From positions 17,908 to 81,907 of the IMG/VR virus record IMGVR_UViG_3300045974_000399: DNA of 64,000 nt; one strand, given 5' to 3'. The stretch is from a virus. The position numbers were made by a program, and so were the translations under genes. The notes under the pieces are model-generated. The model was given only the letters and a program-made list of their open reading frames with translations. It made no database searches and had not been told where the DNA came from. This document shows, piece after piece, positions 3,813 through 43,968 of the stretch (its first letter is position 1; every line of letters starts with the position of its first letter).

Positions 3813-3840
3813 ACTGCTCTCCTTTTTGGTACGAAATTTC

Positions 3841-14423: not shown

Positions 14424-14428
14424 TAGGT

Positions 14429-14588: not shown

Positions 14589-15524
14589 GGGAAAGAAGGA
14601 AATATAATCCAGCACTAATTTCCTTCTTGAAGTCCCTCCACACTTCTGACAGGTAACATTGACGTATTCAGCAACGCCAAAATCAGTTAGCTCAGAAAGC
14701 AGCTCCTCAATTCCATCCTGAAGTGTGAAGTCAGGCTGACCTTCTAGTATATAAATCTTGTCCTTTAGTGTCTCCCCGTCTTTAATCCACTGAGCTAGTC
14801 CTACAATGTAAGCAGCTCCCTCAATGTCCATTATTTCTTCTTCTGTTAGCGTAGAGGTACCATTAAGAATCTGTTTCCTGCATTCCGAAAGCCTCTGATT
14901 AACTGACCAGACGTCCTCAAACAAACTCATCGAGGGCAAATCAATAGTTTCTGGAGCAGATATCTCATCGGGAAAAGTGTCAATGATAAGACTTGTCATA
15001 CCCAGTGTGGACAAGTTCTTGTACCCACATTCAGCTCCCTCTTCATTTGGAACAGGCTCCTCCGCACTAACTAGACCGGAGGTTAGGAATGCTGGTACAT
15101 TATCGCAGGTCCATTCAACCTTAAAGGGTTTCTTGGGATACGAATTGAGACGTAGCCAGTAAAGGCAATACTCGAAATCCTGTATCTTAAGAGAGAATAC
15201 ATCTTCAGATAGACATGCAGCTACTGCAGAAATAAGATACGTCAAGTTACCTGATTTCTTAGCCATGTATATAAGCTTGGCTTCTGAGGTACTGAATGGA
15301 CGTATCCAGAGTTGCTTGAAAGCATAGAACCGATAAGAAGTGGGTATAGGGTCTAGTAATACATACCGACCATCATTCCGAACGAATGTCTTTGGTGGAG
15401 TGGCTTTTTCAGGTTTGGGTGATTCTTTTACAGCAGGAATAGCAGCTTCCAAAACTACAAGCTGTTCTGGTTGAGTTGTGAGCTTAGTAGATTTATCGGG
15501 TGACGCAATTAGTATCTTTCGCAT
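14586..15524 (-). CDS. Tail assembly chaperone / hub assembly factor, zero-frame product
   Basis: At 312 aa, this protein lies between the tube-like genes and the tape measure. Its C-terminus has a CxxC ('CQKCGG') and other cysteines that may bind zinc. Many myoviruses encode a T4 gp26-like or chaperone protein here. The N-terminus MRKILIASPDK resembles the short leader seen on many proteins in this window, followed by a Pro/Lys-rich stretch to about residue 45. The gene ends at the putative +1 frameshift site. Role from position and the frameshift; no strong family match by eye. Confidence 0.65.
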   Translation of the reverse strand: MRKILIASPDKSTKLTTQPEQLVVLEAAIPAVKESPKPEKATPPKTFVRNDGRYVLLDPIPTSYRFYAFKQLWIRPFSTSEAKLIYMAKKSGNLTYLISAVAACLSEDVFSLKIQDFEYCLYWLRLNSYPKKPFKVEWTCDNVPAFLTSGLVSAEEPVPNEEGAECGYKNLSTLGMTSLIIDTFPDEISAPETIDLPSMSLFEDVWSVNQRLSECRKQILNGTSTLTEEEIMDIEGAAYIVGLAQWIKDGETLKDKIYILEGQPDFTLQDGIEELLSELTDFGVAEYVNVTCQKCGGTSRRKLVLDYISFFP

Positions 15525-16751: not shown

Positions 16752-18590
16752 TTACTTCACGACGGCGATTGTGACACCAGTTCTGGTAAGGATGAACCTG
16801 ACGTAAGCGCGCTTGAGCGGCATTCTGGGGTTCAGGTAAATGTCGATGTTGAGGTTACCTGCATCGGCATCGTCCTGCGTGTTGTTCGACTTGTCGCAGA
16901 TAATATCGTAGCTGATGAGTCCCTCTCCCAGTTTGATGGGGTCAAGCAGCGCAACCAGCCGGCCGAGAACTTCCTGCTTGAGAGCGTCTGACAACGGATC
17001 GAACACCGTATGCAGGATGGTGATCTCAGTGTAGAAAGCCAGGAATAGCATGAGGCGCCGGATGCTAATGGTTGAAAGAACGGTTTCACGGAGCTGAAGG
17101 GTAACGTCACCCCAAACAAATATCCCCAGATTCGGGATTACCCGGGTCGGATTGATCTGACTCTCAACCAGAAGATCCCGAGCTGCTTGGTCATAGGTAG
17201 CGCCTACATCCAGAATGTTGAGGTACGCACGCTTGATACCTGCCGGAGCAAACCAGGCTGCGGTGGTTCGGTCGGTTCGTGCGAAGATGGCCCCGAGATG
17301 CCCAGAAGGTGGAATCTGGATGACCGTATTATTGAAGGTGTCCTTGACCACGTACCATGGGGTATACAGAGCCCCATACGTAGAATCAGCATTACCGAGA
17401 TACGCTGCATCCGTACGATACTCGATGGGCTTGGTGGTAAGGTCGTAGCGGTCACCCTGAGCTGCACTGGAGATATCCAGAATGGCAAAAGCATCCTGAC
17501 GGTCCCGAGCCACGTTCATCATCTCTTTCTGAACTGCCGGGATGGTGTAGCCGCCGTTGATGAGGATGCTTGTTACTACACGCTCCTTACTCCGGTACAA
17601 CTGCCAACCACTGATTTTCTTGGTGGGAGTAGCAAACACATCCGTAGGGAACTCATCCACACCGTTGAGGATATCCGCCATTTCACTAGAGGTGAAACCC
17701 AAGCCAGAGTCTCCGCCTTTAAGGATGGCAAGATGCGTGTCGGTAGCGTCCTTGGAGTAGACTGCGGGCGTACCTGTCGGAGCGGGAAGCAAGTATTCCG
17801 AGGCCGCAGCATTGGCACGAACTCGTATGTACTTGGACTTACTGTTGACAACGTCTTCGATGAACTGCTGGGCACCCATACCGCTCAACTGCTGCTTGAG
17901 GCTGACAACGAAGGTCTCCAGAACTTTCGGACTGGTTGCTACGTCAGCAGCACCCACCACACTCAGACGGAAGGTGTTGGGATTCGCCGCATCAGTTTTT
18001 CCCTTGACGTCGCTGATGATAACACGATAGTCAGAGGTACTGGTACGCGGGTCAACGCCGAACACCCAGAACAGGTCGATATTGTGGGTTGTAGCGCTGA
18101 GCGTGGCATCAATGTCGGTATCGAGAGGTTTAGCGAAGAAAGTGCTGGGGTTGTAGGGGTCAACAAACTTTCCAGTTGTCCAGGATTCGAGGCCAACCGT
18201 GACAACGGTAGTGCCCTGAGCGCCCTGCTGTCCTTGAGGACCTTGCGGCCCAAGCTGGGGCAGCGAGTTAAGTTTCACTGAAAGTCCGCCAAAGCGGGCA
18301 TCCTTGTGAACACGGGTTACGAGAAGTGTGCGCATCTCGGTGAGGGCTTCAAGGGCGCAGTAAATTCCGTAATGCGACCCTGCGGCGGCAACGTTTACGT
18401 CAGGCGTACCGAACGTATCCAGCATCTGCTGGGTGCCTGTAATAGGCACAACCTGATCTACAGGCCCCTGCTTGGCAAAGATACAGATGGATCCAACTGA
18501 GGTATCGGGTGCTGTAGTTCCAGCCTTTTCCCCAGTGCGATCTTCTTCAGCAATGTAGACGCCAGCGCTTGCATGAATATTAGCTTTCAT
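16752..18590 (-). CDS. Tail sheath protein
   Basis: At 612 aa, the N-terminus 'SAGVYIAEED' matches the start of contractile sheath proteins. The C-terminal region has the conserved order found in them: 'AAWFAPAGIKRAYLNI', 'QARDLLVESQINPTRVIPNLGIFVWG' in part, then 'ISIRRLMLFLAFY' and a final beta strand. Sheath subunits surround the tube and contract at infection. A small collagen-like 'GPQGPQGQQGAQG' stretch (about residues 113-125) is unusual and may be a flexible surface loop. Codon use is strongly G/C-ending. Confidence 0.95.
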   Translation of the reverse strand: MKANIHASAGVYIAEEDRTGEKAGTTAPDTSVGSICIFAKQGPVDQVVPITGTQQMLDTFGTPDVNVAAAGSHYGIYCALEALTEMRTLLVTRVHKDARFGGLSVKLNSLPQLGPQGPQGQQGAQGTTVVTVGLESWTTGKFVDPYNPSTFFAKPLDTDIDATLSATTHNIDLFWVFGVDPRTSTSDYRVIISDVKGKTDAANPNTFRLSVVGAADVATSPKVLETFVVSLKQQLSGMGAQQFIEDVVNSKSKYIRVRANAAASEYLLPAPTGTPAVYSKDATDTHLAILKGGDSGLGFTSSEMADILNGVDEFPTDVFATPTKKISGWQLYRSKERVVTSILINGGYTIPAVQKEMMNVARDRQDAFAILDISSAAQGDRYDLTTKPIEYRTDAAYLGNADSTYGALYTPWYVVKDTFNNTVIQIPPSGHLGAIFARTDRTTAAWFAPAGIKRAYLNILDVGATYDQAARDLLVESQINPTRVIPNLGIFVWGDVTLQLRETVLSTISIRRLMLFLAFYTEITILHTVFDPLSDALKQEVLGRLVALLDPIKLGEGLISYDIICDKSNNTQDDADAGNLNIDIYLNPRMPLKRAYVRFILTRTGVTIAVVK

Positions 18591-21246: not shown

Positions 21247-22341
21247 TTAAATTTTCTGGCCTTTCGCTACGGACCGGGCATTGGCGATGACGAGGGAGAG
21301 GCTCTCGCTCATGAACCAGCCGCGGGTGTTACGGCCCTGGAGGGCGCCGTCAATCGGGGTGGACTCAACGCCACCACGGGTGGTGAACTGACCATGATTC
21401 TGCTGGGCGCCGACGATGTAGATTTCACCCGTTCCGAGAACCTGGAGTTCCGGAGCGCGGTAGCCGTCGGTGACGAGCCGCATGCCGAGGAGGGTTCCGA
21501 GCTCGCCGTTCAGCACGAGGTCGAACTTGGTGACCGGATCAAGCATGGACATGAACTCGCTGTTGCCAACAATGTCATTCCAGTAGTCGTAGGAGAGCAG
21601 ACAGGTCGTTGCCGGAATTTTCCATTTTGCAACTTCGTTCCGAAGCGAGGTAAGGGTTGTCGGGGTCAGGGCGCCGGCGATGTATTTGATGAAGTTCGAG
21701 GAGCCTACGGTGGCGTCCGCAGCACGTTTCCAGAGACGATCTTCGGTGGTCATGATGGCCTGGAGGCCTTCGGTGTACTTCTCGTCCAGGATGTCCGAAG
21801 AGATCTGGTCGATATCTCGGTTTTCAACTTCGATGTTGGCATCGACGTAGAATTCCGGCGGGTACATCATGCGCTCACGGACGAGCTGGGGGAGAACCAT
21901 GGCGGCGCTGGTTGCCATTACGGCAACAACGTTGTTAACCCGCATTCTGCAGCGAGCTACTTCGCCCTGATTGAGCTGCTCTTCAATCAGGAGGTTCCGC
22001 ATGAAACCCTCACGCTGGCCGGATTCTTCGATCTTGGCAGCGAGAGCCATGCCGAGTTTCTGCCACTTGGTGCCGGTGCGGTCGTTGAAAGCAGCGGCGA
22101 GTACTTCACGGTGCATACGACGGTTGGTGTCGCTGGTCTTGCGGACGATTTCACCACGGCTACTGGCAGTTACCAGCTTGGCGATCTGGCCGAGCATGTC
22201 CTTGTCGGAAGTTGCGTTGAGGGTCCCGTCACTGGCAATAGCGGCTTCGCGGGAATCACCCAGCTTGAGGTCCTGAATTTCAGCGCCCGATGCGAGTGTA
22301 AACGTAACACCAGCATAAGGGTTCTTTTTCTGAGTTTTCAT
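21247..22341 (-). CDS. Major capsid protein, HK97 fold
   Basis: At 364 aa, position (after protease, scaffold and decoration genes), length and sequence style fit an HK97-fold capsid protein. The N-terminal ~90 residues look like an arm, then 'AFNDRTGTKWQKLGMALAAKI', a spine-helix region, and an A-domain-like 'LDPVTKFDLVLNGELGTLLGMRLVTDG'. The C-terminal strands end near residue 355. Codons are strongly G/C-ending, as expected for the most abundant virion protein. Cleavage of its N-terminus by the prohead protease is possible but not shown. Confidence 0.85.
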   Translation of the reverse strand: MKTQKKNPYAGVTFTLASGAEIQDLKLGDSREAAIASDGTLNATSDKDMLGQIAKLVTASSRGEIVRKTSDTNRRMHREVLAAAFNDRTGTKWQKLGMALAAKIEESGQREGFMRNLLIEEQLNQGEVARCRMRVNNVVAVMATSAAMVLPQLVRERMMYPPEFYVDANIEVENRDIDQISSDILDEKYTEGLQAIMTTEDRLWKRAADATVGSSNFIKYIAGALTPTTLTSLRNEVAKWKIPATTCLLSYDYWNDIVGNSEFMSMLDPVTKFDLVLNGELGTLLGMRLVTDGYRAPELQVLGTGEIYIVGAQQNHGQFTTRGGVESTPIDGALQGRNTRGWFMSESLSLVIANARSVAKGQKI

Positions 22342-25058: not shown

Positions 25059-25442
25059 TTACACTTTAGTAACATTTGGTTCCAGAGCAGATATATCTAT
25101 TGCGTACCCTTCTAGCAGTAATGCTAGGTTTTTTAACCGGGTGGCACGTATCCGATTAATCTTGTTTGTTACCCGGACAAGAGCCTTAGGGTTTATCTGA
25201 CTAGATACGCTGGCAAGATACCTATCGAAAGAAGCATTGAGTAAGGTTTTACCAGCATCCAGTATTCTCGCGGTTATGACGGAAGCGTCTATCTCTGGAA
25301 ATACTGTCAAGGTAAACAAAGGCTTTTCTGGCTTTACCTCTGTAATAGTATCCTCAGCATCGTCTGTTTCAATGACCTCAGACTCGTCTACAACTGTGTC
25401 TTCAGTGTCATCTGCAATTACCACAGCATTAACTTTACGCAT
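25059..25442 (-). CDS. Leader-bearing small protein (127 aa)
   Basis: It begins MRKVNAVVIAD, matching the shared leader, then an acidic Asp/Glu/Thr linker to about residue 38 and a helical, more basic C-terminal domain. The design (leader, disordered acidic linker, folded domain) fits a packaged internal protein. No family recognised. Confidence 0.7.
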   Translation of the reverse strand: MRKVNAVVIADDTEDTVVDESEVIETDDAEDTITEVKPEKPLFTLTVFPEIDASVITARILDAGKTLLNASFDRYLASVSSQINPKALVRVTNKINRIRATRLKNLALLLEGYAIDISALEPNVTKV

Positions 25443-25453
25443 CTCATCCCCCT

Positions 25454-25759
25454 TTATAGGCGTATACCCGCGATATCCTGCTCTATTTCATCGACAAGTT
25501 GTAAGCAGTCTGCTCTTACTTCCTTGCTTACGCTATCGCTGAGTTTAGAGAAAGCCGCGGTTATTGTTGTTACCTGCTTAATTGAGTATACCTTACCGAG
25601 TGCCCCAAGAACTTCTTCCTCGACCTCAGATATTACTTCGGTTACTAAACCGATTAACCCATTACAGAGGTCATCTGTGCTACCAAAGGTAGGTAGAGAT
25701 GTAAGATAAATACCGGTGTCTCCTCCTGCGGTCTCTTCTACAACTTGCGTCTTACGCAT
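25454..25759 (-). CDS. Leader-bearing small helical protein (101 aa)
   Basis: It begins MRKTQVVEETAGG, carrying the leader and the recurrent 'ETA' end. The remainder is predicted helical with 'VISEVEEEVLGALGKVYSIK'. AAGGAG precedes the ATG. It lies directly after the ferritin gene. No family recognised. Confidence 0.7.
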   Translation of the reverse strand: MRKTQVVEETAGGDTGIYLTSLPTFGSTDDLCNGLIGLVTEVISEVEEEVLGALGKVYSIKQVTTITAAFSKLSDSVSKEVRADCLQLVDEIEQDIAGIRL

Positions 25760-25776
25760 AACTGGCTCCTTGTATG

Positions 25777-26676
25777 TTATTTAAGCTCAAAATCAATCTG
25801 CAACAGTGCCGCGGAATTACCAGAAGCCAGACGTATTCGGTCAAGGATGGATTTTACTCCAGCTTCTTCTTCAACCTGCTCACGGACGTACCACTCCAGG
25901 AATATGCAGGTGGCAGCGTCAGTTTCCCTAGCCAGGAAATAAAGGTCGCTTATCTTACGAGTAATCATCTTCTCGTGCTGTAATGCAGCCATGAAAAACT
26001 CTTCGAGACTACATGGAGCGGTAACGATGGCTGGTTGCTCAGGTATGAAGACCATCCATTGTTTATCGAGCAGAAACTTGAACATCCCATCTGCGTGCTT
26101 TATCTCCTCCGAGTACTTATCCTTGAAAAACTTCTCGGTTCCAAATAGCCCTCGATTGTTTGCTACTCCGCTAAGCACCCAGTATAAGTTAGCAGATGCT
26201 ATTTCGAGGCCAACCTGGAGATTGAGAAGATTGAGCAGCTCAACATTCGTGGGCGTGATATCCACAGTACACCCACACGGGTTGTATCCTTTTCCCATTC
26301 CTTCAGGGGGATTTAAGAATGGATTATCCAAAACAGGTTCCGGAGGTGCTGGCTCGGTCTCACAAACTGGAGCAGTGCACTCAGGAGCTGGCTCACATAC
26401 AGGAGCAGGTTCAGGACAAGTCTCACAAACTGGAGCAGGTTCAGGGTAGGGCACGTTATCAGTTATGAGTTCCTCGGGGACTACAGCCGCAGGTGTCTCA
26501 ATTACTTCCAGCCTTTCAGAAGCCTCCCGTAGCTCGTCCAGTGAAATCGGTCTTAAGCTTAGCGCTCCATCCTGCTCTGGGATATCACCCATGCTTGTAG
26601 GAGCAGTAACGAATACCTCTGCAGAGGAAAACTCTGCATCTCCGTATAAACCTTGCAGTATTGCTTTCTTCATCAT
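25777..26676 (-). CDS. Ferritin with a Cys/Pro-rich N-terminal extension
   Basis: Residues ~143-290 are a four-helix ferritin. The di-iron ligands are in place: Glu158, Glu191 and His194 (E-x-x-H), Glu235, Gln267 and Glu270. The spacing between the first ligands, 33 and 44 residues, equals that of E. coli FtnA (17-50-94). The helix 'FLEWYVREQVEEEA' is typical. It should oxidise Fe(II) and store iron in a 24-mer. Unusually, ~140 residues precede it: a leader-like start, a helical stretch, then Pro-Glu-Ala repeats ('PEPAPVCE') with five cysteines at residues 84-105 and 'CGC' at 134-136. Free ferritins lack this. Neighbours are head genes, so a virion location is possible. Confidence 0.9.
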   Translation of the reverse strand: MMKKAILQGLYGDAEFSSAEVFVTAPTSMGDIPEQDGALSLRPISLDELREASERLEVIETPAAVVPEELITDNVPYPEPAPVCETCPEPAPVCEPAPECTAPVCETEPAPPEPVLDNPFLNPPEGMGKGYNPCGCTVDITPTNVELLNLLNLQVGLEIASANLYWVLSGVANNRGLFGTEKFFKDKYSEEIKHADGMFKFLLDKQWMVFIPEQPAIVTAPCSLEEFFMAALQHEKMITRKISDLYFLARETDAATCIFLEWYVREQVEEEAGVKSILDRIRLASGNSAALLQIDFELK

Positions 26677-26682
26677 GCACCC

Positions 26683-27087
26683 CTATTTCTTCTGTGATAG
26701 TATTACTTCGTATATGAGGTTTGACAGGATCTTTCCCTGCTCAAGTAGCTTCTTATTACCTTTTGCGGCAGCCAGATTTATCAGTACGCCTGACTGTCTG
26801 TATCTCCTGGCTACATCCACTTTATCCCGATGTTCCAAGTAGTTTATTATTTGGTTCCGTTGAAAATCCGTAAGCTTTTTTAGGTCTTTCGGTAGATCTA
26901 CTTCAGGTAGTACATCAGATATCTCGTAGCTGAGTATTGGGGTTGCCCATGCTTCTGTGAATGTCTTCTGGGCAACGTTGGACCAAGGCTTACCCCTTCG
27001 ATCATAGAGGTCTTTGGCCCATTCTAAAACTTTGGCCCGAGTATACCCCTGTCTTTTAAGCTGGAGTATTTTGTCGTACAGCTTCAT
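26683..27087 (-). CDS. Protein with shared ~45-residue N-terminal module (134 aa)
   Basis: The N-terminus, MKLYDKILQLKRQGY through W-x(4)-Q-x-x-F-x-x-A-W, aligns with the first ~50 residues of the proteins at 39407-40291 and 47282-48442. The rest is basic and helical. It overlaps none of its neighbours and lies six bases upstream of the ferritin. No enzymatic motif. Confidence 0.7.
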   Translation of the reverse strand: MKLYDKILQLKRQGYTRAKVLEWAKDLYDRRGKPWSNVAQKTFTEAWATPILSYEISDVLPEVDLPKDLKKLTDFQRNQIINYLEHRDKVDVARRYRQSGVLINLAAAKGNKKLLEQGKILSNLIYEVILSQKK

Positions 27088-27097
27088 AAGCGCCTCG

Positions 27098-27532
27098 TCA
27101 TCCTGTTATTTTTAGAACTTTGAGGGCTATCGGGAAGATAAATGACTCGCCCCACGGAATCTCTTTTTCTGTGAGCTTGAAGGGTGGCAGCCCATAACGC
27201 GCTAAGATGTCTGGAAGAAAATCCTTCTCGAATATCTCCCAAAATCCGTAGATAATCCCAAGCTTTACCCCGAACTTCCTAATGCTAGTGGCAAGGGTTT
27301 CAGCTACATCCTTAAGGTCTACTCTACTTAAGGTATTTTCAGCTATTTCAACCATGGCCTTATACTTTATTTCCTTAGTGGGAAACTTCTTGACCATGTA
27401 CTCCCATATCTTAGGGAGAGCTTTAGCAAGGGCCAGGATAATGAATTTCTTTGCATTGTTAAGAAGTAGCTGCTTGACTTGAATGCTAAGAGCAACCTCT
27501 TTATGAGTATACGTACACCTTGCTACACGCAT
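27098..27532 (-). CDS. Leader-bearing helical protein (144 aa)
   Basis: It begins MRVARCTYTHKEVALS. Most of the chain is amphipathic helix rich in Lys and Leu, with 'KKFIILALAKALPKIWEYMVKKF' and 'GVKLGIIYGFWEIF' perhaps touching membranes. No family recognised. Confidence 0.65.
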   Translation of the reverse strand: MRVARCTYTHKEVALSIQVKQLLLNNAKKFIILALAKALPKIWEYMVKKFPTKEIKYKAMVEIAENTLSRVDLKDVAETLATSIRKFGVKLGIIYGFWEIFEKDFLPDILARYGLPPFKLTEKEIPWGESFIFPIALKVLKITG

Positions 27533-27543
27533 CTGGATTCCTC

Positions 27544-27969
27544 CTATATTTCCCCTCGGTAAGGTGGAAATAGCATACTGGGGGTCTTAGCTTCATACTC
27601 AGGGAGAACGTCATCTTCCTTTGGCTTCATTTTCTTCTTTGCTTCAAGCTCAACTATCAGATCCCTAGGCATGTCTCGTATTTCATCTTCATGCAATGCC
27701 CCACAAAATAGCTTTACTTTAATCTGTCTAGCAACGTCACGGGTCTCAACAGGCAGTTCTACATCCATATCATCGTCTACTCTGCCCAAAGGCCGAATAC
27801 GATTTTTATTTCTGAGGTTACCTTTTTTTGTTGTAGGAAAATCTTTAACGTCATACTTAGCGTTATCGTTAGACGGGAGATCTCCATTGGACGGTGTGTT
27901 ATTAAACGCGGGACGAGGAACCATTGGAGTAGGGGTGTTATACGCTATAACTACCGAGATTATACGCAT
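27544..27969 (-). CDS. Leader-bearing protein (141 aa)
   Basis: It begins MRIISVVIAYN, then a disordered Pro/Asn/Lys-rich stretch and a charged helical C-terminus. The recurring promoter-like motif lies about 40 bases before its ATG, so it may start a transcript that runs into the ferritin and beyond. Confidence 0.65.
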   Translation of the reverse strand: MRIISVVIAYNTPTPMVPRPAFNNTPSNGDLPSNDNAKYDVKDFPTTKKGNLRNKNRIRPLGRVDDDMDVELPVETRDVARQIKVKLFCGALHEDEIRDMPRDLIVELEAKKKMKPKEDDVLPEYEAKTPSMLFPPYRGEI

Positions 27970-28008
27970 GCTAGACTCCGAAGCCAGAGGGCATCATAAT
28001 TGACTATA

Positions 28009-28021
28009 CCTAAAATTATAA
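28009..28021 (-). promoter_or_regulatory. Recurring promoter-like motif
   Basis: On the coding strand this is TTATAATTTTAGG, about 40 bases before the ATG at 27969. It overlaps the stop of the preceding 63-aa gene. It belongs to a set with near-identical copies at 38682, 43969, 48483, 50545 and 55873. Confidence 0.45.
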
Positions 28022-28207
28022 ACTTTCCGTTTTTTCTTTCAGACCAAACTTCTTGTTAGTAGGGTTAACCCAATAGCTATCTGGGTTACTAATCCAGTCA
28101 TAATACTCGGTCATTGTAACATCTATTAAGTCGGACGCCTTAGAAAGTGCCGAAGTAACCCTGCCCTGTATCTCACCGGTAGTCAAGTCAAATTTTAAGC
28201 AGTACAT
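28016..28207 (-). CDS. Small protein downstream of fibre genes (63 aa)
   Basis: ATG behind TTAGGAGA, nine bases past the previous stop. 'FDLTTGEIQGRV' is its only notable stretch. It may be a small fibre-associated or chaperone protein; this is a guess from position. Confidence 0.6.
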   Translation of the reverse strand: MYCLKFDLTTGEIQGRVTSALSKASDLIDVTMTEYYDWISNPDSYWVNPTNKKFGLKEKTESL

Positions 28208-28215
28208 GTTTTCTC

Positions 28216-28815
28216 CTAAGGATCAAAGTGTATGGGATCTGCACCCAGTTTATAAACAAGCGCATTTATCTGGTAAAATCGCCTAAGCGTAATAATCGGA
28301 TTGTTTATCAGAGTAAAGGTATCCCAGTACAATGCCTTATACAATCCTGCTGGCCTAGGTGTAGAAAAATTTACCCAGTCTATTGTCTTGGTTAGATACG
28401 CATAATTGTGAGAGACATGGGTATACGCCAGCATGTATATGTTACCATTCACAAATATGTTAGGGCATGAACCAAACATATCAGGCAATTGCCTCTTCTC
28501 AAGCGGCTCCTCACTACTCATATCCACCTTCATCAGGTAAAACTTAGTATTTAAGGAATATATAACCGTCCAGACTTTTGGGCTTAGCTTCGCCCAAACC
28601 ATGCCTCCATATAAGCCTTGACCCATATAGTAGTCTAGACCAGCACTAGTGTCAAGTGCGTCTTGTGCCGTAACAGGTTCATACTTCTGTACCTTTGAGC
28701 GCAATGAGAAGTAATCTAGGTTTTTTAGTACCCAAATCTTTCGGTTGTCGCTAGTGCCATAGTCTCTACAGTCTACCGCCAGACCACCTGGCCCTGAGAT
28801 ACGTCTCTGGAACAT
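28216..28815 (-). CDS. Small beta-rich fibre-cluster protein (199 aa)
   Basis: This beta-rich, aromatic protein has the composition of the adjacent 1547-aa protein and begins only four bases past its stop. It looks like a detached propeller or fibre domain. 'PNIFVNGNIYMLAYTHVSH' resembles a propeller blade. Confidence 0.65.
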   Translation of the reverse strand: MFQRRISGPGGLAVDCRDYGTSDNRKIWVLKNLDYFSLRSKVQKYEPVTAQDALDTSAGLDYYMGQGLYGGMVWAKLSPKVWTVIYSLNTKFYLMKVDMSSEEPLEKRQLPDMFGSCPNIFVNGNIYMLAYTHVSHNYAYLTKTIDWVNFSTPRPAGLYKALYWDTFTLINNPIITLRRFYQINALVYKLGADPIHFDP

Positions 28816-28819
28816 AAAA

Positions 28820-31800
28820 TCACCATGACCTTAGTAAATAAACATACGCCATGTAAAAATCTTTGTTCGCGTCACTTCTACTGAAATAGATACGACCAAG
28901 GAGTTCATCAAATATAACCACATTCGTCTGTAAAGTATTAGAGTATATATCCGTGATGCTAACAGCTGACGCAGGGGACAGTATCGAAAACTTATCCCCG
29001 ACACTGGGTGTAGACGAGAATGGGTCGCAGGTGAATAGCTTAAGAGTGCTATCGTAAGCAATTATCTTTCGTGTCTCACCATTCCACTTAAGGTAATTGC
29101 CTAGGTAGAAATTATACCCTTTTGCTACCTCTGTAGAGTCAGTTATAATTGATCCGGAGTCTATAACAGCTGATATGTTCTGATTCAACAGATAGTCGGT
29201 TAAGTATGCGTGATACCCTGTTGACTTATCTAAGAAATAAAATTCAGAGTCACCACCAAAATCAGCACGAAGCCACTTGTCCATGTGTAATGCTCTAGCT
29301 TCTATAGTGGTATAGGGTATCCAACTTACTGTTCCTGAGTTTATCTTGAAATTATTAAACCGTGTAGCAGTAGATGGAGTAGAACAATATATATTTACCC
29401 TCATGTCATTCCATACTTGCATCGTAGTTATACTAAATGATACCCAAGCTGAACTGGTGCTATTCCAGTAGTAACCTGTGAATATATTGGATGACCTAGC
29501 TAGTCTGAACTTGGTTGTTGTATCCGCAGTAACTACCTGAGTACCTACCTGAGATCCAGAAGCTAACCACTGATAAAAGGTAAACCGATGATTCTGTAGA
29601 AATACCCCAATAGCATATCCCGTCTTGACGTCTACAACCCTTAGACCAGACCAGTTAGTGGTTCCATCATTAGAAATGCTAGGAACGTCTATCTGAATAT
29701 CGAAGTCACCTTCCAAGCTATACACACTAGTACAAGACGCGGTCTGCCCTGCAGTAAACTGGAGAGCTCCGGCAGTTAGCAGTGGGGCAGTACCTGAAGT
29801 TGTCCATCTTGAGGTATTCGGCACTTGACCTGTACTGTCAGTAAAGTACTCATCCCCAGGTTCTACGTTCTGTGTTGACTGCGTCACAAGATCATAGGTT
29901 TCAAACATCTGACGGGCATCCGCAAAGTAACTGACAAGTCTAACCCCTGTTAGGTATTGCTGGTTGTCTTTTATGAAACCATTCTTAACCGCGCCAAACT
30001 CATACCGGTCGGTATTGGCAAACGTTAGATTTTCATTCAGTGGGTTGGGCTGACAGCGTATCTGGATCTCATCAAACATATCCTGCCAATCAGCATGAAC
30101 AGGTCGGCCACGCATTGTAAGCATGTTGGAAGTCCAGTCTACTCTAACCCACTTTTCGTAAACGGTATCCCAAGAGTATCTAGAGTAGTCCATCTCGTGG
30201 TGACTGTTAGGGTACCCCTTCCAATCGTTGTAACTATTACCGGACCACCACGTGCCATGACCAAAAGCGATGATATGCTTCTTATTGATTACCCCTGTAG
30301 CCATCCGAGCACCCTCATTGTATGAAGATAAAGGCAGTGGGTACTGCTGACAAGCCCATGTAACCAGGGTAGGCTCATACACATATATTCTATCCACTTT
30401 TATGCTATCATTATTACTTCCCTGATACTCATCATATGCGGTGGTTGTGCTGTTGTCGAATAGGAAAGCTGAGGTAAAGGTTTGGTCAGGGTTATCATGA
30501 AAGTACCCACACCGAGTTGAAGTATTGTTTACATGTGGCCGTTGACTGAGAATGGTAAAGTCGGCAGGGTCAATTGTAACCATCTTGGTCTGACCAATAA
30601 CGTGTAGATAGTTGTCTATTGTCCGTATAACTGAACCTGCTCGGCTAACACGCCTGCAGTCATTTACTACCTTGGTGGTAAGATTTATGTAGTTTACTCG
30701 TTTGTCTACCTCACCAATGTTTACCCGATAGTCTAATACTTTGAACTCGTATCCTTTTTCGTGAGATTGATCTTTCAAGAAAGCAGCAATTCCCACATAT
30801 AGGTCACCCGCTATAGTCTGAGTGCTGGTACCAATATTTGTCCAAGTACAATCACCATCAGGAACATATAACTCATCCAGACTGTAAAAAGCTTGTACCA
30901 CGTTCGCCGAATCTCGGGTAAGCTTGAGATGTATAACTTGGAGCGTGTTAGAAGTCCTGACCGAAGGGTCCTCATAGTGAAGCTCTATACTTGATAAGCA
31001 TCCAGGATAACTCCCAGGATTATGATAGAAAGAGTCATACGCAGATAGACGATAGTAAGAATATGCGTCCACGTTGTTGAAATATCTGTAATTCGTGAAT
31101 CCTGCTGTAGTAGGCTCCCACTCTTGCGAAGCAACAGAATCCAGGGTTACCCAGGTTGTTCCATCCATACTACCTGACAAGGTCCAGGAATACAGCTGAT
31201 AGCTACCTGACCTATCAGTAGGGTTAACCAAAGCGTACTTGTTTATTACCGTAGGAGCGTTAAATTTCCACTGTGTATACCCACCTGTGCTGTTAACCTG
31301 CCAGTAGTCGTTATTAGACGTCCAGGCGTTTGCAGGACCAGACAGATTACCTGAGTTATAGGCACCATTAGCTGTGATGGCTAAATTCGAGGTATTAACA
31401 AGGCCGCTCTTAACTACCGCTGTAGCATCGGTAGTTGATACTCCAGATACGGTAGACAATGCCTCTGCCACCATCTGGGTGCCTACCCTGTTCATAAGCA
31501 CGGATTTATGCGTGTAGTTATTATTGGTGGGCGTAGGTATCGCTACTAAGCCAATACGCTGGTTTAGGTGCCGGGCATCGTACTTTAAGGCCATTGTAAC
31601 TTCAAAGGGGCCTGAGCGAAGACGCTGCGCCAAGAAGGTAGGGTGAAAGACAGTTCCTCCTATATTTCCACCGTTAGGCTGAATATATAGACTACTATCA
31701 GCCATACGAAAGAATCCACACCGATGCTGTATCAAAGACCAGTTATTTACTGTATAGGCGTTGAAGTTGGCAATACCGTTGAACTGACTTCGGTCTTGAA

Positions 31801-33463
31801 TGCCAATGCGCTCCATAATTATCATGGAGCTATCTTGACACAGAACAATTTCGTCAGTATCAGCCAAATAATTTCCCCAGCTATAATACTTGCAGAGACC
31901 ATCAGACCGCTCTACTACACCTGAAGAGAAAAGCCATAAGTCAGGGGAATGTATCCAGCTTGGCGTAAATATATAGGAAACTAGGTCAAGAATTGAAACC
32001 AAGCACTCATTTCTATGCCAGATGAGCATTGTCTTATTGTCAAGTATGATAGCGTGATGCGCTACATAAGGTGCAGTAGCAACCTTAGTCTCAACTAGAG
32101 TGGCAACGGTACCATCACCTGAAACATAACTGTAGATGTCTCTTTGATTATTTCTAGCATCAATGGCAAAGAACCTGTCGAAATAATCAACTACGGTATC
32201 ATACACAATATACAAGGCTTTTCTTGACCCTGGAAGGGCAATGTTACCACCACCTGTATCTAGGTTTTCAAGACAAGTGAATAGTCTTTCATCCCAGTTA
32301 TATCGAGTGGAAAAAACTACCCAGTCTCTAGATCCGAATTTTCCAAACAAAGTCTCTGCATGGACAACGTTTGACCAATCGGTATCATAGTAATGATGAG
32401 CGGGTCTTAAAATCCAGTCCTCTTTCTGAACCCAGTACAAAGCGGTGCTCATCCCAGCTATGTCATAGAGGTTTTCACCTGCGTCAATATATAGTGAGAA
32501 CTTGGCCCTGTTCATATCCAAAGGGGTAAAGGGATAATTCTTAGCCCTAACTTGAAATGCTTTCATGTACCCTACAGTAGGATTATTCAGGTCATAAAAG
32601 TCAATGGGGTTAGTCGCGGTTCCATCCGTTAGTCTCCAGCGTTTACCCCATACCCTACCAAGAGTGCTAAAAGGGAAGTACTTAATCGGTCCGAAGTAGT
32701 CAAAGGAAATAGACTTCCAGCCCCAGCCAACCCAGCTACCTAGGTTGTCCTTGCTACCAAGGCCAATAATTCCAGTGTCATATCTGAGATGTGTCCAGTC
32801 GAAAGACAGATCTCCAACGTTACCTACGGTGGATCCATACCACTGCCACTCTAGAGTAGTATTAGCAGACTCATCTGGCATTATATCATTTGAGAGGATT
32901 GAATCAAAAAGACGATATGAACTATACCTACTACCATCTCGGAACAACTGCCAATAAAGCATCCAGTTAACCGTGGTGCCATAGCCATAGTTCTGACGAG
33001 AAGTGGTTACATAGATATAGTAGAATACGGTTAGGGTTGTTTTGTCATCTTGAACTAAAGGAGTGGTAAGAACAGTGTAACAATACGCGGAAGTACCAGA
33101 ACCGCTGGTAGCTATACCAATTGTATTTACCGTTCTAACGGTACCTACCGCAGGGGCTAGAAAGGTAGTCTGAAACTTCCAGCGCTTATATGAATCCTCA
33201 CGAGATGGCCAAAGCGCATTGGCTATAACCACGTTAGGTATAACTGTGTCGGTGTACTTTGGTAAAACAGTATTTGTGCTAAGGCATACATAAGGTATAG
33301 CATTACCATTACGCATTGAGTTACCCAATCTACGGGTTCCCTCATCTAGCCAGAGGTTAGGCTGGGTGTGGTCAAATATGGTTTCACCATCACGCGTCGC
33401 TACCACCCTGACGATACCCTTGGCAGAAAAACCAGCCATACTAAATAATACTTTTGGATCCAT
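28820..33463 (-). CDS. Giant receptor-binding/fibre protein with discoidin-like and LamG-like domains
   Basis: This is the longest protein here at 1547 aa. Residues 1-110 look like an attachment region. The middle has many short aromatic beta units typical of propeller blades. Around residues 690-840 is a discoidin (F5/8C) type domain: 'GNLSGPANAWTSNNDYWQV', 'YTQWKFNAPTVINKYAL', 'SWTLSGSMDGTTWVTLDS'. At about 1280-1400 is a LamG/DUF1349-like jelly roll ('GDFDIQIDVPSI...'). Such domains bind glycans, so receptor binding is likely. It lies between the prohead protease and scaffold genes, not in the tail block, so head or collar fibres are possible. Confidence 0.75.
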   Translation of the reverse strand: MDPKVLFSMAGFSAKGIVRVVATRDGETIFDHTQPNLWLDEGTRRLGNSMRNGNAIPYVCLSTNTVLPKYTDTVIPNVVIANALWPSREDSYKRWKFQTTFLAPAVGTVRTVNTIGIATSGSGTSAYCYTVLTTPLVQDDKTTLTVFYYIYVTTSRQNYGYGTTVNWMLYWQLFRDGSRYSSYRLFDSILSNDIMPDESANTTLEWQWYGSTVGNVGDLSFDWTHLRYDTGIIGLGSKDNLGSWVGWGWKSISFDYFGPIKYFPFSTLGRVWGKRWRLTDGTATNPIDFYDLNNPTVGYMKAFQVRAKNYPFTPLDMNRAKFSLYIDAGENLYDIAGMSTALYWVQKEDWILRPAHHYYDTDWSNVVHAETLFGKFGSRDWVVFSTRYNWDERLFTCLENLDTGGGNIALPGSRKALYIVYDTVVDYFDRFFAIDARNNQRDIYSYVSGDGTVATLVETKVATAPYVAHHAIILDNKTMLIWHRNECLVSILDLVSYIFTPSWIHSPDLWLFSSGVVERSDGLCKYYSWGNYLADTDEIVLCQDSSMIIMERIGIQDRSQFNGIANFNAYTVNNWSLIQHRCGFFRMADSSLYIQPNGGNIGGTVFHPTFLAQRLRSGPFEVTMALKYDARHLNQRIGLVAIPTPTNNNYTHKSVLMNRVGTQMVAEALSTVSGVSTTDATAVVKSGLVNTSNLAITANGAYNSGNLSGPANAWTSNNDYWQVNSTGGYTQWKFNAPTVINKYALVNPTDRSGSYQLYSWTLSGSMDGTTWVTLDSVASQEWEPTTAGFTNYRYFNNVDAYSYYRLSAYDSFYHNPGSYPGCLSSIELHYEDPSVRTSNTLQVIHLKLTRDSANVVQAFYSLDELYVPDGDCTWTNIGTSTQTIAGDLYVGIAAFLKDQSHEKGYEFKVLDYRVNIGEVDKRVNYINLTTKVVNDCRRVSRAGSVIRTIDNYLHVIGQTKMVTIDPADFTILSQRPHVNNTSTRCGYFHDNPDQTFTSAFLFDNSTTTAYDEYQGSNNDSIKVDRIYVYEPTLVTWACQQYPLPLSSYNEGARMATGVINKKHIIAFGHGTWWSGNSYNDWKGYPNSHHEMDYSRYSWDTVYEKWVRVDWTSNMLTMRGRPVHADWQDMFDEIQIRCQPNPLNENLTFANTDRYEFGAVKNGFIKDNQQYLTGVRLVSYFADARQMFETYDLVTQSTQNVEPGDEYFTDSTGQVPNTSRWTTSGTAPLLTAGALQFTAGQTASCTSVYSLEGDFDIQIDVPSISNDGTTNWSGLRVVDVKTGYAIGVFLQNHRFTFYQWLASGSQVGTQVVTADTTTKFRLARSSNIFTGYYWNSTSSAWVSFSITTMQVWNDMRVNIYCSTPSTATRFNNFKINSGTVSWIPYTTIEARALHMDKWLRADFGGDSEFYFLDKSTGYHAYLTDYLLNQNISAVIDSGSIITDSTEVAKGYNFYLGNYLKWNGETRKIIAYDSTLKLFTCDPFSSTPSVGDKFSILSPASAVSITDIYSNTLQTNVVIFDELLGRIYFSRSDANKDFYMAYVYLLRSW

Positions 33464-33475
33464 GTCATGCTCCCT

Positions 33476-34405
33476 TTATACGATAACTTTAGCTTCCATA
33501 CTGTATATCGTTAGCCGTCTAGCGGAGTAGCCTGCAACAGCCACCGCGTTAATATTTTCAACTACTGTTTCTATTATGCACTCATAGTTTGCTACCGGTC
33601 TAACTTTACTTACGATTGATCTTGGATGTGCCTCAAGAAAATTAGCTGTATCAGTAATAAAGAACTGAATAGGTTCACTGCTTAACCTAACTAGCTTTCT
33701 ATTAGTGTAACCGGCTAAAAACGCATCCAGAGTGTCCTCAACTGAAACCAGAAATGGAGTATTGATTTCTTCTTTTCGGCTCTCAGTTGTTATCTCAAGT
33801 ATTGTATAGACCGTAGTAAAAGAGTACTTGGCATAGGCTTTAACTCGCCAGTCTAACCAAGTATTCGTTGTTTCGCCAATCAATACGTCCTCTTCATAAA
33901 CCTTATACCAAACTTTAACCCCATTATACTGTGGGGCAGCTGTCCAATAAAGACGATACCCCTCAGCAACAGGATTAACTGGTTTTGGCTGAAAGTCAGG
34001 CCAGTCATCGGTAACACTTCTATACTGTAGCCCCTTATACATCAGTCTGCTGGGCTCTATATAGACCGTAACACCCTTAAAGCGTGGATCAATAGCATCC
34101 CACAATTGCAGTGGAGAAACAGGAAGTCCAAGCTCACCTGGTAGCATTTCTAAGCGCTGTATCTTAGCACCATTCTCGAAGTACAAGTATGCCTGAGGAT
34201 TCTCATATGAAAGAGTAGGATGCTGGCCCTGGATTACCTTATACGGAGTACTCCAAGACCCATCATCAGTTGTCTTGATTATATAAATGTCTAAACCTAT
34301 TGTGAATACTGCCCAGATTTTACCGTCAACAGTGGCAATATCACAAACATTTATTAGCTCAAGCATCTGCAGCATGTCATTATATGGCTGGCAGCATATC
34401 AGCAT
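33476..34405 (-). CDS. Fibre-cluster structural protein (309 aa)
   Basis: A beta-rich protein whose N-terminal third contains 'VDGKIWAVFTIGLDIYIIKTTDDGSW', similar to Asp-box/propeller blades. A fibronectin-like middle ('YRLYWTAAPQYNGVKVWYKVYEED') follows. It is packed between two larger fibre proteins with gaps of 12 bases, so it probably belongs to the same appendage. Confidence 0.65.
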   Translation of the reverse strand: MLICCQPYNDMLQMLELINVCDIATVDGKIWAVFTIGLDIYIIKTTDDGSWSTPYKVIQGQHPTLSYENPQAYLYFENGAKIQRLEMLPGELGLPVSPLQLWDAIDPRFKGVTVYIEPSRLMYKGLQYRSVTDDWPDFQPKPVNPVAEGYRLYWTAAPQYNGVKVWYKVYEEDVLIGETTNTWLDWRVKAYAKYSFTTVYTILEITTESRKEEINTPFLVSVEDTLDAFLAGYTNRKLVRLSSEPIQFFITDTANFLEAHPRSIVSKVRPVANYECIIETVVENINAVAVAGYSARRLTIYSMEAKVIV

Positions 34406-34417
34406 ATTGGTATCCTC

Positions 34418-35836
34418 CTATATTAAGGACCCCAGAATGTACCAGCTTACACCTTGCAAAGATTCATCCTCTGTACTTTGTGTAGTAAATATCAGAGTTT
34501 CTCCAGGAGCAAAGTACATCGGCTGCTGAGTCAAGGATATAAATGCCCCATCTCTGCTGTCCTTTACAAAACGAATAGCACCTATCATGATACCTGACTT
34601 TACTATAGATATATCAAAACGGTTACTAGTAGGTGCAACCGCAGCAAGAGCCTGACTACCCAAGAAACCAGAAGGTATTACCAGAGGCCTGCCTGCTAAA
34701 AATATGCTTACCACAGTGTTACCTGGGACAAAACTAGGAATACTCCCTACTATATCATACATGCCTGAATCAACTATCCAACAAGCATCAGATAGAAATA
34801 AAGATGGAGTTATCAGGACATAGGTAATCTGAGTTTCCACTATAAAAACTTTAAGTCCCTGCACTTGTTGATTTGTTGTTATCCTATCCCTGTCAGCTTT
34901 TGTTGGAACAGTTATGTAGGGCCTAGGCATCCAGATTAGTTGCCTGCCTGCGGTGTCAACGGTTGGTATACTCCCGTTGTAGCCATCGTAGGTATCTGGT
35001 GTATCTGTAAGCCGTAAGAATGTAGTATTATTTATATTGAATTGATTTGTAGGGTCAAGTAGCTCTGGGAATAATTCTTTTGGGTTGCGCTGCGGAGCCT
35101 CTGACCAAATAGCTAGCCGAACGTTACCTGCTAATACGGATACCCAGTTAAGTATAAAACCCCTGAACCCAAGTTGAATTCTTAAATACCAGTCAAGCTC
35201 ATCCATTCGTGCAGCTATAATTGCGCTACCCCAAGGGTCAGTTATACTATTTCTTCCATAAACAGAACAAAGGTCCCCCTCCCTGATGATTTTTTTCATC
35301 GTGGTGGCGGGACCCTTCAGTTCATGCTTAACTCCCCACTTGTCAATTAGACCAACCTGCTCATAACCTGTCCATAGCCTGAACTGGTTAGAAGCTCTAT
35401 AGCTGGGAGTATCTGGGTTAAATCCGAGGTAACCTGTATTCATATCAACAGGCATAACCTCATATTGGAACTCAAAGTCACCTGATAGCACCCATGTGCT
35501 TTCAAGCCAGTTATCAGTATGGTTCTGGTCTACTCGTAGATATCCACCTGCTGTATAGTAAGCACCTGAGTAGAACCCTGTTTGTCCGTACTCAGGTAAC
35601 TTAAGCCAGCGTGTAGGATCAGGGTAGGGTTCCACAGTAAAGTCATCGTCTGCGTACAAGAAGTGAACCTTAACTTCTCTGTAGTAGGGAACAACAACTA
35701 TGTAGCCTTTTGTCCAGGCTTGTTCAATGTCATTTGTGAGAATATCTAGGTATACGGACTCCCCGGCATTAAGTGTAATATCATTGACGACTACCCCACC
35801 ATTCCCGGCAAAGGCCGTTGCTATAACCTTAAACAT
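34418..35836 (-). CDS. Fibre protein with LamG-like domain (472 aa)
   Basis: The first ~50 residues (start MFKV, then GNGG, 'L-x-AGES' and 'TKGYIVVV') align with the start of the repeat fibre at 46059-46844, suggesting a common attachment module. Residues ~95-215 look like a LamG/DUF1349 jelly roll ('GDFEFQYEVMPVDMNTGYLGF'). The C-terminal half is beta-rich. A glycan-binding fibre is likely. Confidence 0.65.
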   Translation of the reverse strand: MFKVIATAFAGNGGVVVNDITLNAGESVYLDILTNDIEQAWTKGYIVVVPYYREVKVHFLYADDDFTVEPYPDPTRWLKLPEYGQTGFYSGAYYTAGGYLRVDQNHTDNWLESTWVLSGDFEFQYEVMPVDMNTGYLGFNPDTPSYRASNQFRLWTGYEQVGLIDKWGVKHELKGPATTMKKIIREGDLCSVYGRNSITDPWGSAIIAARMDELDWYLRIQLGFRGFILNWVSVLAGNVRLAIWSEAPQRNPKELFPELLDPTNQFNINNTTFLRLTDTPDTYDGYNGSIPTVDTAGRQLIWMPRPYITVPTKADRDRITTNQQVQGLKVFIVETQITYVLITPSLFLSDACWIVDSGMYDIVGSIPSFVPGNTVVSIFLAGRPLVIPSGFLGSQALAAVAPTSNRFDISIVKSGIMIGAIRFVKDSRDGAFISLTQQPMYFAPGETLIFTTQSTEDESLQGVSWYILGSLI

Positions 35837-35866: not shown

Positions 35867-36604
35867 TTAAGTAGCCATCGACATTACCCTGTCCGAAACA
35901 GCGTAGATAAACGCAGGTGAGCCTACTGAGCTTGTCTCGAATGGAACAATCTTGTAGATACGTCTGTATACCAGTTCACCAGAAGTATCCCGATACAGCG
36001 TTTCCTTTGGACCGGTGTGCCGGCAACGCCCACGTTCCGCTCCACACTTGGAACAGGTATAACCTTCAAAGTAGGCACCCATTGAGTAACAATTTCTTTC
36101 CCCACTGAGTATCTGGTTTGCCAGCACAGGGTCTTTACTTCGGTCAAAGGACAGTAGTTCTACTACCTTAGCGAAGCCCTGACCCCAGCCTCGCAGCGGG
36201 GTAACGAAAGCATCCAGAATTACGCCTTTGGCCTGAGTCATATCTTGATTAGCGTGCTCGCTGTATGTTGGCTTACCTTTGAACCCCTTGTACGCCAGCT
36301 GTCCCATTTCGGGGTCGAAGCGAAGTAATTCATCCTTGGGAAAGGCAACACCATTGGTATTAGGCATATCGGACACAATTGTAGGCACTGGAACCATTAT
36401 GTAATCACGAAGATCCTTAGACAGATTATAGCACTCCGCAGCCGCAGGTAGCCAGAAATCGGCATCAAGTCGTGCTCCATTTACTCCTGTCATGTCAGAA
36501 GACAGAGCGGCGTTACGAGTAGTTTCTTTATACAGTTCCAGTGGCGCACTCCCACGAGAAGCACAGCTATACGTCACCATTTTTCCATCTTTAAAGAGTT
36601 CCAT
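35867..36604 (-). CDS. Prohead maturation protease
   Basis: At 245 aa, this follows the portal gene as in T4 (gp20, gp67/68, gp21). Catalytic residues of the phage prohead protease families are visible: His117 in 'YSEHAN' followed by 'AKGVILDAFV', and Ser174 in 'CYSMGAYFEG'. The C-terminal 'VPFETSSVGSPAF' matches the usual end. A small zinc knuckle (Cys184, Cys187, Cys194, His196) is inserted after the serine. The enzyme would cut scaffold, capsid and internal-protein propeptides. Start ATG 36604 has GGAGG five bases upstream; the GTG further up lies inside that site. Confidence 0.85.
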   Translation of the reverse strand: MELFKDGKMVTYSCASRGSAPLELYKETTRNAALSSDMTGVNGARLDADFWLPAAAECYNLSKDLRDYIMVPVPTIVSDMPNTNGVAFPKDELLRFDPEMGQLAYKGFKGKPTYSEHANQDMTQAKGVILDAFVTPLRGWGQGFAKVVELLSFDRSKDPVLANQILSGERNCYSMGAYFEGYTCSKCGAERGRCRHTGPKETLYRDTSGELVYRRIYKIVPFETSSVGSPAFIYAVSDRVMSMAT

Positions 36605-36628
36605 CTCAGCCTCCACCTGTTTGATATG

Positions 36629-36787: not shown

Positions 36788-38647
36788 TTATCTTTTACTT
36801 TCGTGCTTAGCACGAGCAGCTTCATCCTTGTGTAATTTTTCTGCAGCTTTGGCAATCAAGCGGTTCATCTTTGCATGAGCTCCTTTTTGGTTAGATATAT
36901 ACTTCGGCTTACCTGATTTAGTTTCACCGATTATATCGGAAGCTACTCCGTACTCTCTACCCAGAAGACCCTTTGATGCCTTACCTTTACTTTCCAGAAG
37001 CTTTCGATGCGTGGCTGAGATGTAGGGATTGTCCGAGCTAACGTGACCCAGGGTAGTGAACAGCTCATGAAGATCAGATGCCTCCTCAGAGTCGTCTTCA
37101 CTTTCAGGTGCGCCACCCCCGCCTTCAAGGCGTTTCTTTTGCTCAGATATCATCTTTCGTACCTTGAAGTCATCGTCCATCTCTTGGATTAGAGCATCAA
37201 GGGATAACCCGCCTGCCGCAGCCATAGTCCGCAGACTTACAGGTACACCTGCTTCGGTTAGGGTGTTTAGCATCTGAATATAATCTGTATCGCCCTCGGG
37301 CTTTAACTGTTTGTGCCAGTGAACCTGTGGTATAACCAGAGATGAGTTGTCCTGCAGTTCATAAAGAATTTCCTCTGGGTCCATACCCTTCTTTTTCCAT
37401 TTTCGGGCATCATCTGCATTCTTATAATACCCATTCACCACGGAAATCAAAGGGAATAATTTGTCATAAAATACCTTCCGAGTAAGCATGTCCCGATATG
37501 AGCGAAGACCTTCAATGAATACCGAAAGAGCTGCTTCAGCCGAGTTATAGTTAGCGTCTCCAGACAAGAATGACTCGCTTATGCCTAACGCTCTAAGCTT
37601 AGCAGGAACTGTCTCAGACCAAACACTAGTGATATTCCAGAAGTCTCCACCCTGCCTAATGTCAGCCACGTTAATATCCGACCGAGTCGCAACAATCGCC
37701 CCAATTGGATCAGCGTCAGCATTCATAAACAGTTCGGTTAAGTACTCCAAGTCCATGAGAGTAGGTTCCCAGTCCATGCCGTTTCCCGCTGTGATATGCA
37801 GGATGGCACGCTGCCGCTTAGCACTCTCAATAAGCGTACCCTTGAACAGATTTTTCTCCAGAAGGTATATCGGTAGGATACGTTTGTAGTAGGATATGCC
37901 TTCTCGGTTAGAAAGTGCTTTCCGGGGAACATACAGGGTTGTGAGGTTATCCAGTTCAAAAGATCCACCCTGCAACTTCTTGATGATGTCCTCTCCTAGA
38001 CGTTTCTTTATTCGCTCAATTCTTTTTGACTTACTGTTCAGTACATCAAGGGTTTCTCGAGCTACGGTCACGTTAATGATTGGGTCCTGTCCATAGAATG
38101 GCAACGGACTTATCTTACAGTGGTCAATGTCTTGCGGGATTATGTCGGTGAATATTCCCTTCTGTTTATTGAAAACCAGGGTACCAATAAAAGTCCCTAG
38201 AACAAGGTAGTCGATACTCATCTCTGGAAGAAGACGGAATATGTTTATCCTATCCAAAGACTCATAAAATTTACCCAGAAGCTGGTTCTGATCTTTGGAT
38301 ACACCACCCAGTGTAATATCTGAGAAGGGTAAGGTAGACATCAAGTCTGCTGCCGCTCCCGCCACGTTATCATAGTAGTATATATCTCGGTATAGATTAT
38401 TCAGCAAAGGGAAGTTTTCGTAGCCATCGGGAACAATACCCTTTAGCAGAGGGAACAGGTCTATATTCAACATGTTGTTACTTACAGAGGTGTTTCTCAA
38501 GGATGTGCTTTGCATTCCATCAAAAGCTGCCGAAGTTTCAATCATCCGGTCAGTTACTTTCTTAGAATCAGCCTTAGCTGCTACTGCTCGGGATGCAGTT
38601 CCTTGCAGCGTCCTTTCGTCCTGAATATGTCTACGAGAGCGAATCAT
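36788..38647 (-). CDS. Portal protein
   Basis: At 619 aa, this has the length and layout of T4 gp20-type portals: a variable N-terminus, 'LPFSDITLGG' and the clip/stem region, 'ALGISESFLSGDANYNSAEAALSVF' near residue 370, and a long charged C-terminal tail with 'KSKRIERIKKRLGEDIIKKL' upstream. The dodecamer forms the DNA channel at the unique vertex and binds the terminase. GGTGGAG precedes the ATG, and the promoter-like motif lies about 40 bases upstream. Confidence 0.9.
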   Translation of the reverse strand: MIRSRRHIQDERTLQGTASRAVAAKADSKKVTDRMIETSAAFDGMQSTSLRNTSVSNNMLNIDLFPLLKGIVPDGYENFPLLNNLYRDIYYYDNVAGAAADLMSTLPFSDITLGGVSKDQNQLLGKFYESLDRINIFRLLPEMSIDYLVLGTFIGTLVFNKQKGIFTDIIPQDIDHCKISPLPFYGQDPIINVTVARETLDVLNSKSKRIERIKKRLGEDIIKKLQGGSFELDNLTTLYVPRKALSNREGISYYKRILPIYLLEKNLFKGTLIESAKRQRAILHITAGNGMDWEPTLMDLEYLTELFMNADADPIGAIVATRSDINVADIRQGGDFWNITSVWSETVPAKLRALGISESFLSGDANYNSAEAALSVFIEGLRSYRDMLTRKVFYDKLFPLISVVNGYYKNADDARKWKKKGMDPEEILYELQDNSSLVIPQVHWHKQLKPEGDTDYIQMLNTLTEAGVPVSLRTMAAAGGLSLDALIQEMDDDFKVRKMISEQKKRLEGGGGAPESEDDSEEASDLHELFTTLGHVSSDNPYISATHRKLLESKGKASKGLLGREYGVASDIIGETKSGKPKYISNQKGAHAKMNRLIAKAAEKLHKDEAARAKHESKR

Positions 38648-43941: not shown

Positions 43942-43968
43942 GCTGTCTCCTAGACAATCTTTGATATA

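Follow-up and report, generated by a model that had tools for sequence, protein, structure and literature searches.

A gene in a 64,000-nucleotide stretch of viral DNA (hereafter, the window) is predicted to encode a ferritin of the FtnA type, the 24-mer kind, behind a long N-terminal arm. The window covers positions 17908 to 81907 of an 81.9-kb viral record (IMG/VR IMGVR_UViG_3300045974_000399), which, judged by its sequence, represents part of a jumbo phage of the PaBG/Y3-like kind. The reading that we tentatively prefer, by analogy with proteins of other phage lineages, is that of a working ferritin cage whose outward arms would serve as tethers to a late structure of the phage, perhaps the virion. 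The features concerned are as follows.

21247 to 22341, minus strand: major capsid protein (MCP); phrog_2522, E 1e-85; 45% identity to Pseudomonas phage PaBG
23160 to 24881, minus strand: acidic scaffold-like protein (PHROG name "ATPase"), flanking the insertion
25059 to 35836, minus strand: 11-kb insertion between protease and scaffold; no counterpart in relatives
25777 to 26676, minus strand: ferritin gene with arm (P0001), 299 amino acids; Pfam and NCBIfam profiles, PDB matches, AlphaFold and Foldseek
25780 to 26244, minus strand: FtnA-type ferritin domain, residues 145 to 299; profile, ferroxidase ligands E158/E191/H194/E235/E270 and Y165
26245 to 26676, minus strand: N-terminal arm, residues 1 to 144; 7 Cys and 24 Pro, mostly disordered in the model
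26359 to 26445, minus strand: 30-bp tandem array, a degenerate repeat of 2.8 copies coding for PEPAPVCE-type repeats
35867 to 36616, minus strand: head maturation protease, flanking the insertion; phrog_18299, E 1e-73
36788 to 38647, minus strand: portal protein; 46% identity to Pseudomonas phage PaBG

The ferritin domain

Residues 145 to 299 scored over the cut-off of the Pfam Ferritin profile (E 2.3e-25), which identifies a four-helix ferritin domain, and matched PDB ferritins (E 8e-23), with identities of 31 to 38% to the structural matches. The NCBIfam FtnA model gave an E value of 3e-22, under its equivalog cut-off. The first-pass annotation had claimed that all di-iron ligands and their spacing are those of FtnA, and alignment to FtnA recovered every one of them: E158 (E17 in FtnA), E191 (E50), H194 (H53), E235 (E94), and E270 (E130). 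At the C site, E190, E266, and E269 are also kept, as is Y165 (Y24). An AlphaFold model built with 44 sequences has pLDDT values of >90 across nearly all of the domain and includes the fifth short helix (residues 288 to 298), a fold compatible with a cage. Foldseek matched the domain to the ferritins of Pyrococcus furiosus and Thermotoga maritima and to Escherichia coli FtnA (E of about 1e-8), with TM-scores against 24-mer ferritins of 0.87 to 0.92 by target length and an rmsd of mostly about 1.5 Å. The window protein thus has the fold, all ferroxidase ligands, and the fifth helix in common with these FtnA-type 24-mers, from which it differs in being phage borne, in its 144-residue Pro/Cys-rich arm, and in its low identity. 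Two other identities were rejected: NCBIfam gave no bacterioferritin family match, the best relatives being non-heme FtnA proteins, and the Dps-like DUF5856 mini-ferritin family (PF19174) is absent from the window's record.

The closest matches to the window ferritin are cellular ferritins, at 38% identity at best, and in the tree it lies on a long branch without a supported neighbor, so neither a donor nor a common origin with the crAss-type ferritins described below is claimed. Cellular nearest matches also suit a soluble ferritin made late in infection, i.e., an acquired host-type protein that would take up Fe2+ and lower oxidative damage, with the arm serving as a linker or a tether to a cellular partner and having no use in the virion. 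Standard FtnA chemistry would be sufficient for this role, and two reports interpret phage Dps and ferritin-like genes as a defense against oxidative stress (PMC6669764, PMC8008677). This explanation is nearly as likely as the tethered cage, but it accounts neither for a 144-residue arm built of repeats nor for the frequent position of arm-bearing ferritins in viral head modules.

The arm and its genomic setting

The arm was described in the first-pass annotation as lying outside the known ferritin fold and carrying PEPAPVCE repeats and seven cysteines, a description that held: it comprises 144 residues, with Cys at positions 84, 87, 94, 100, 105, 134, and 136. Structure prediction, proposed there as a check, gave a disordered arm on an ordered ferritin domain; most of the arm has pLDDT values of <60, with low-confidence helices at residues 2 to 11 and 46 to 55 and disorder elsewhere. 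When 62 minus-strand genes of the window were tiled, the arm came first in Pro density (18 in 60 residues) and second in Cys density (7 in 60 residues), against a background of 5.0% Pro and 1.0% Cys. The upstream gene ends at 26683, 6 nt from the ferritin start, which is preceded by GGGGT; this start is credible because a later one would leave as much as about 400 nt uncovered. A prohead-protease cleavage of the arm (SAE|V at residue 20) was considered and dropped since the cleavage motif of that protease family could not be defined.

The ferritin gene lies in the late structural region, between the protease and scaffold genes. In relatives the scaffold gene closely follows the protease gene, whereas in the window the two are separated by about 11 kb holding the ferritin gene, small genes of unknown function, and tail-fiber-like genes (at 28820, 33476, and 34418). 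All ten inserted genes lack a counterpart at this place in relatives, no ferritin was found near the MCP in 44 MCP relatives, and none of 22 related jumbo-phage records, searched whole, contains a ferritin over the Pfam cut-off. A weak match in one relative, G002 (E 5e-4), is under the cut-off and contains a stop, leaving no ferritin ORF; one relative encodes an armless Dps-like DUF5856 protein elsewhere. Because the inserted genes are without counterparts and the related records without over-cut-off ferritins, the window ferritin is an accessory gene of its lineage in the late structural region and not a core head gene. The earlier placement of the gene among head-assembly genes therefore stands as far as the protease and scaffold genes flank the region, but these are separated by an insertion that also carries tail-fiber-like genes.

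No homolog of the arm was detected in the window's record, the 44 MCP relatives, or 40 further ferritin loci of viruses, and a DNA pattern for PEPAPVCE had 0 matches in 2.9 million viral contigs, a set that possibly omits records very near the window's own. The first-pass annotation had named absence of the arm from close relatives as the mark of a lone fusion, in which a recently captured ferritin was joined to unrelated phage sequence and the arm has no selected role. The evidence is divided on this point: no relative has an over-cut-off ferritin and the repeat pattern is without a match, but arm-bearing head-module ferritins recur in other lineages. The single instance, the long, unplaced ferritin branch, and a tandem array suggestive of simple repeat expansion would fit a lone fusion; however, the ligands are fully kept despite the long branch, the reading frame of the arm is open, with Cys and Pro regularly spaced, and the operon is compact, so we consider a lone fusion unlikely.

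The cysteines of the arm raise another possibility, that it binds a metal or a cluster, or is a substrate of the phage's two radical-SAM enzymes, and that the ferritin buffers iron for the Fe-S clusters of those enzymes. Two tandem minus-strand radical-SAM genes with SPASM-like Cys motifs (window positions 1 to 909, continuing in L012 at 17563 to 17928, and L012 16329 to 17573) lie just downstream of a tail-fiber gene. The window part of the first scored just under the Pfam Radical_SAM cut-off (E 2e-6) and the second reached 3e-11; both are over the cut-off in the whole-record search. The nearby tail-fiber-like protein (1686 to 3848, minus strand) has the C terminus FCSCTCTCTCTCPCTCQ...CC. No stretch of the window is denser in Cys, and the ferritin arm comes second; this tail may be a fiber tip that is modified (RiPP-like) or binds metal. 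A comparable Cys-rich tail was sought elsewhere and rejected, as the pattern appeared in 6 contigs, where it lay in short repeat ORFs if in any ORF, and radical-SAM genes were absent from its vicinity. The presence of the radical-SAM pair beside so Cys-rich a fiber, and the arm's rank next to it, speak for a metal or radical-SAM role of the arm, but the genes adjoin the fiber and are some 25 kb away from the ferritin gene, radical-SAM genes also occur in several related phages that lack an over-cut-off ferritin, and no known substrate motif could be recognized in the arm. Such a role is improbable.

Two further observations concern the surrounding genes. L012 also encodes a collagen-like fiber with GPQG/GXQG repeats (13657 to 15174, minus strand), the N terminus of which resembles the start of the window protein at 34418 to 35836 (MFKVIATAFAGNGG / MYKITATALAGTGG). 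The window terminase ORF, preceded by a homing-endonuclease-like ORF (41499 to 43046 and 43012 to 43974), aligns with no more than the C-terminal half of its PHROG (474 to 937 of 940), and the gene is possibly interrupted by an intein or intron.

Ferritins and Dps-like proteins of other viruses

Proteins named non-heme ferritin are already present for phages in viral databases. Two profile scans, the second of which gave 40 loci, together yielded 31 distinct viral ferritins. The ferroxidase ligands are invariant in all 31 except for one substitution at C-site E49; because an EQVEE pattern was used to assemble the set, the invariance of E126 to E130 is biased, whereas that of E17, E50, H53, and E94 is not. 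The median length of the N-terminal arm is 30 residues in viral ferritins versus 5 in cellular ones, the latter being the 80 cellular proteins that match the window's domain best and not a random sample, with lengths counted from the first start codon and hence some overstated in both sets. In Crassvirales-like contigs (L056, L057, L058, and L070) the gene order is portal-ferritin-scaffold-MCP, and the L057 MCP is most similar to those of gut crAss phages (55 to 62%). About 25 loci come from a lineage sister to Crassvirales and have the order MCP-adaptor-ferritin. Environmental Crassvirales and this sister lineage thus appear to carry, in the head module, ferritins that are catalytically intact as judged by their ligands. 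By contrast, the ferritins of the T4-like jumbo contigs L059 and L060 are armless and lie near the DNA polymerase gene, outside the head modules, an arrangement that would suit a soluble protein and weighs against tethering.

When the ferritins of L057, L059, and L075 were used as queries, no ferritin of an annotated isolate was found beyond UNVERIFIED INPHARED records. The "phage" ferritins of INPHARED (MT839617, MT836766, MT838721, OR845001, and others) were rejected as evidence for phage ferritins because of that status, although their sequences did enter profiles A2 and A3. Three of these records are L007 (MT839617), L009 (MT838721), and L010 (OR845001); L007 and L009 have bacterial-looking neighbors (desulfoferrodoxin-like and aldolase-like) and look like bacterial DNA. 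Separately, three uncultured-phage "prohead protease" models in BFVD (A0A6J7XDU5, A0A6J7WPK9, and A0A6J7WIS1) weakly matched the ferritin model in Foldseek, which hints at Dps/ferritin-like domains joined to head proteases.

The sister lineage was sampled further through 80 loci chosen by its MCP, 36 of which show the head-tail adaptor and the following gene. The slot after the adaptor holds an FtnA ferritin in 8 of them, a Dps-like DUF5856 protein in 25, neither in 3, and both in 0. L063, L064, and L071 to L077 are contigs of this lineage with the ferritin in the slot, and L184, L189, L197, L200, and L217 are among those with the Dps-like protein. The Dps-like slot proteins match Pfam DUF5856 and a PHROG named "starvation-inducible regulators," i.e., Dps, and keep H69, H81, D96, and E100 at spacings of 12, 15, and 4, which is the known ferroxidase spacing of Dps, as in Listeria Dps. 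Foldseek returned mostly Dps proteins as their best structures, at an E of only about 0.004. An LKR-type motif in the N-terminal arm occurs in 22 of 24 Dps-like proteins and 15 of 35 FtnA ferritins, compared with 2 of 687 other ORFs, and in a search with a Dps-arm profile the FtnA arms come next, before nearly all other proteins (best E 6e-5). The simplest reading of these sequences is that a single docking arm serves ferritin-superfamily cargoes that can be exchanged for one another. Homologs of the Dps-like protein are annotated as a "phage structural protein" in phiR1-37 (g280) and follow a portal-like "head to tail connecting protein" in podovirus ctEw122. A literature search covering few subscription journals turned up no account of ferritins in the head modules of Crassvirales, and none of DUF5856.

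The window ferritin resembles the crAss and sister-lineage proteins in having a ferritin-superfamily domain behind a disordered N-terminal arm in a structural region. However, their arms are mostly 19 to 53 residues long, often bear the LKR motif, and in the ferritins contain no Cys, whereas the window arm has 144 residues and 7 Cys, lacks the LKR-type motif, and is not detectably homologous to theirs. Their ferritin genes follow the portal or adaptor gene directly, unlike the window gene within its accessory insertion. The analogy is therefore architectural.

A tethered cage and its significance

In 24-mer cage ferritins the N termini face outside. Up to 24 flexible Pro/Glu/Cys-rich arms would therefore project outward from the cage, with which engineered ferritins bearing N-terminal additions in the PDB (5u1b and the fusion 8w3g) are consistent. 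Under the tethered-cage reading, the ferritin would be made alongside the late structural proteins, as its operon position suggests, and would oxidize and store iron in the usual cage, a step that sequence and model support. By analogy with the crAss-sister slot, where a ferritin or a Dps-like protein sits behind a shared type of arm, the arm might tether the cage to some late structure of the phage. The likeliest candidate for this structure is the particle, during assembly or once mature, and there the tethered cage might keep free iron off the DNA or bind virion iron. Injection of the assembled ferritin into the host is unlikely because a 12-nm cage is too big for the tail tube. Tethering is favored by the intact ligands here and in the 31 viral ferritins, the disordered arm on an ordered cage domain, the late structural position, the arm-bearing head-module ferritins of other lineages, the longer arms of viral than of cellular ferritins, the ferritin/Dps swap, and the structural annotation of g280. 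Against it stand the nonhomology of the arms and the position of the gene in an accessory insertion, with no over-cut-off ferritin in the 22 related records searched. A broader proposal, which we regard as doubtful, is that several unrelated tailed-phage lineages independently built virion-tethered iron-oxidizing cages from FtnA or Dps and a swappable head-encoded docking arm; the window phage would then be a separate invention, whose long Cys/Pro arm may bind metal.

The first-pass annotation went too far in supposing that a virion-linked ferritin was undescribed. A virion-associated "ferritin" has been published for the Vi01-like phage Sajous1 with a Ferrojan-horse reading, based on mass spectrometry of CsCl-purified virions and Phyre2, and the phage showed no dependence on the Ferrojan-horse pathway in the one host tested (PMC10892097). 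As far as the accessible text of that report goes, the ferritin identity of the protein, gp217, comes from Phyre2 only (Table 7) and no arm is described. Dps and Mn-catalase are also known from phages, namely, gut "Gratiaviridae" (both) and Lactobacillus phages (Dps), as phage-borne members of the ferritin superfamily with a proposed role in oxidative protection (PMC8008677, PMC6669764); they belong to other subfamilies than the window protein and, in the accessible parts of those reports, are not presented as virion or head-operon proteins.

Whether and where phage particles contain iron is the question posed by the Ferrojan horse hypothesis. The window gene adds a ferritin that is intact as judged by its ligands, with an arm positioned for tethering. 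The crAss-sister slot makes iron handling by virions, or the protection of packaged DNA, accessible to experiment, and its arm would provide a natural docking tag for attaching cage proteins to phage particles. The occurrence of arm-bearing ferritins and mini-ferritins among the particle-building genes of unrelated viruses suggests that some virus particles may carry iron-handling proteins.
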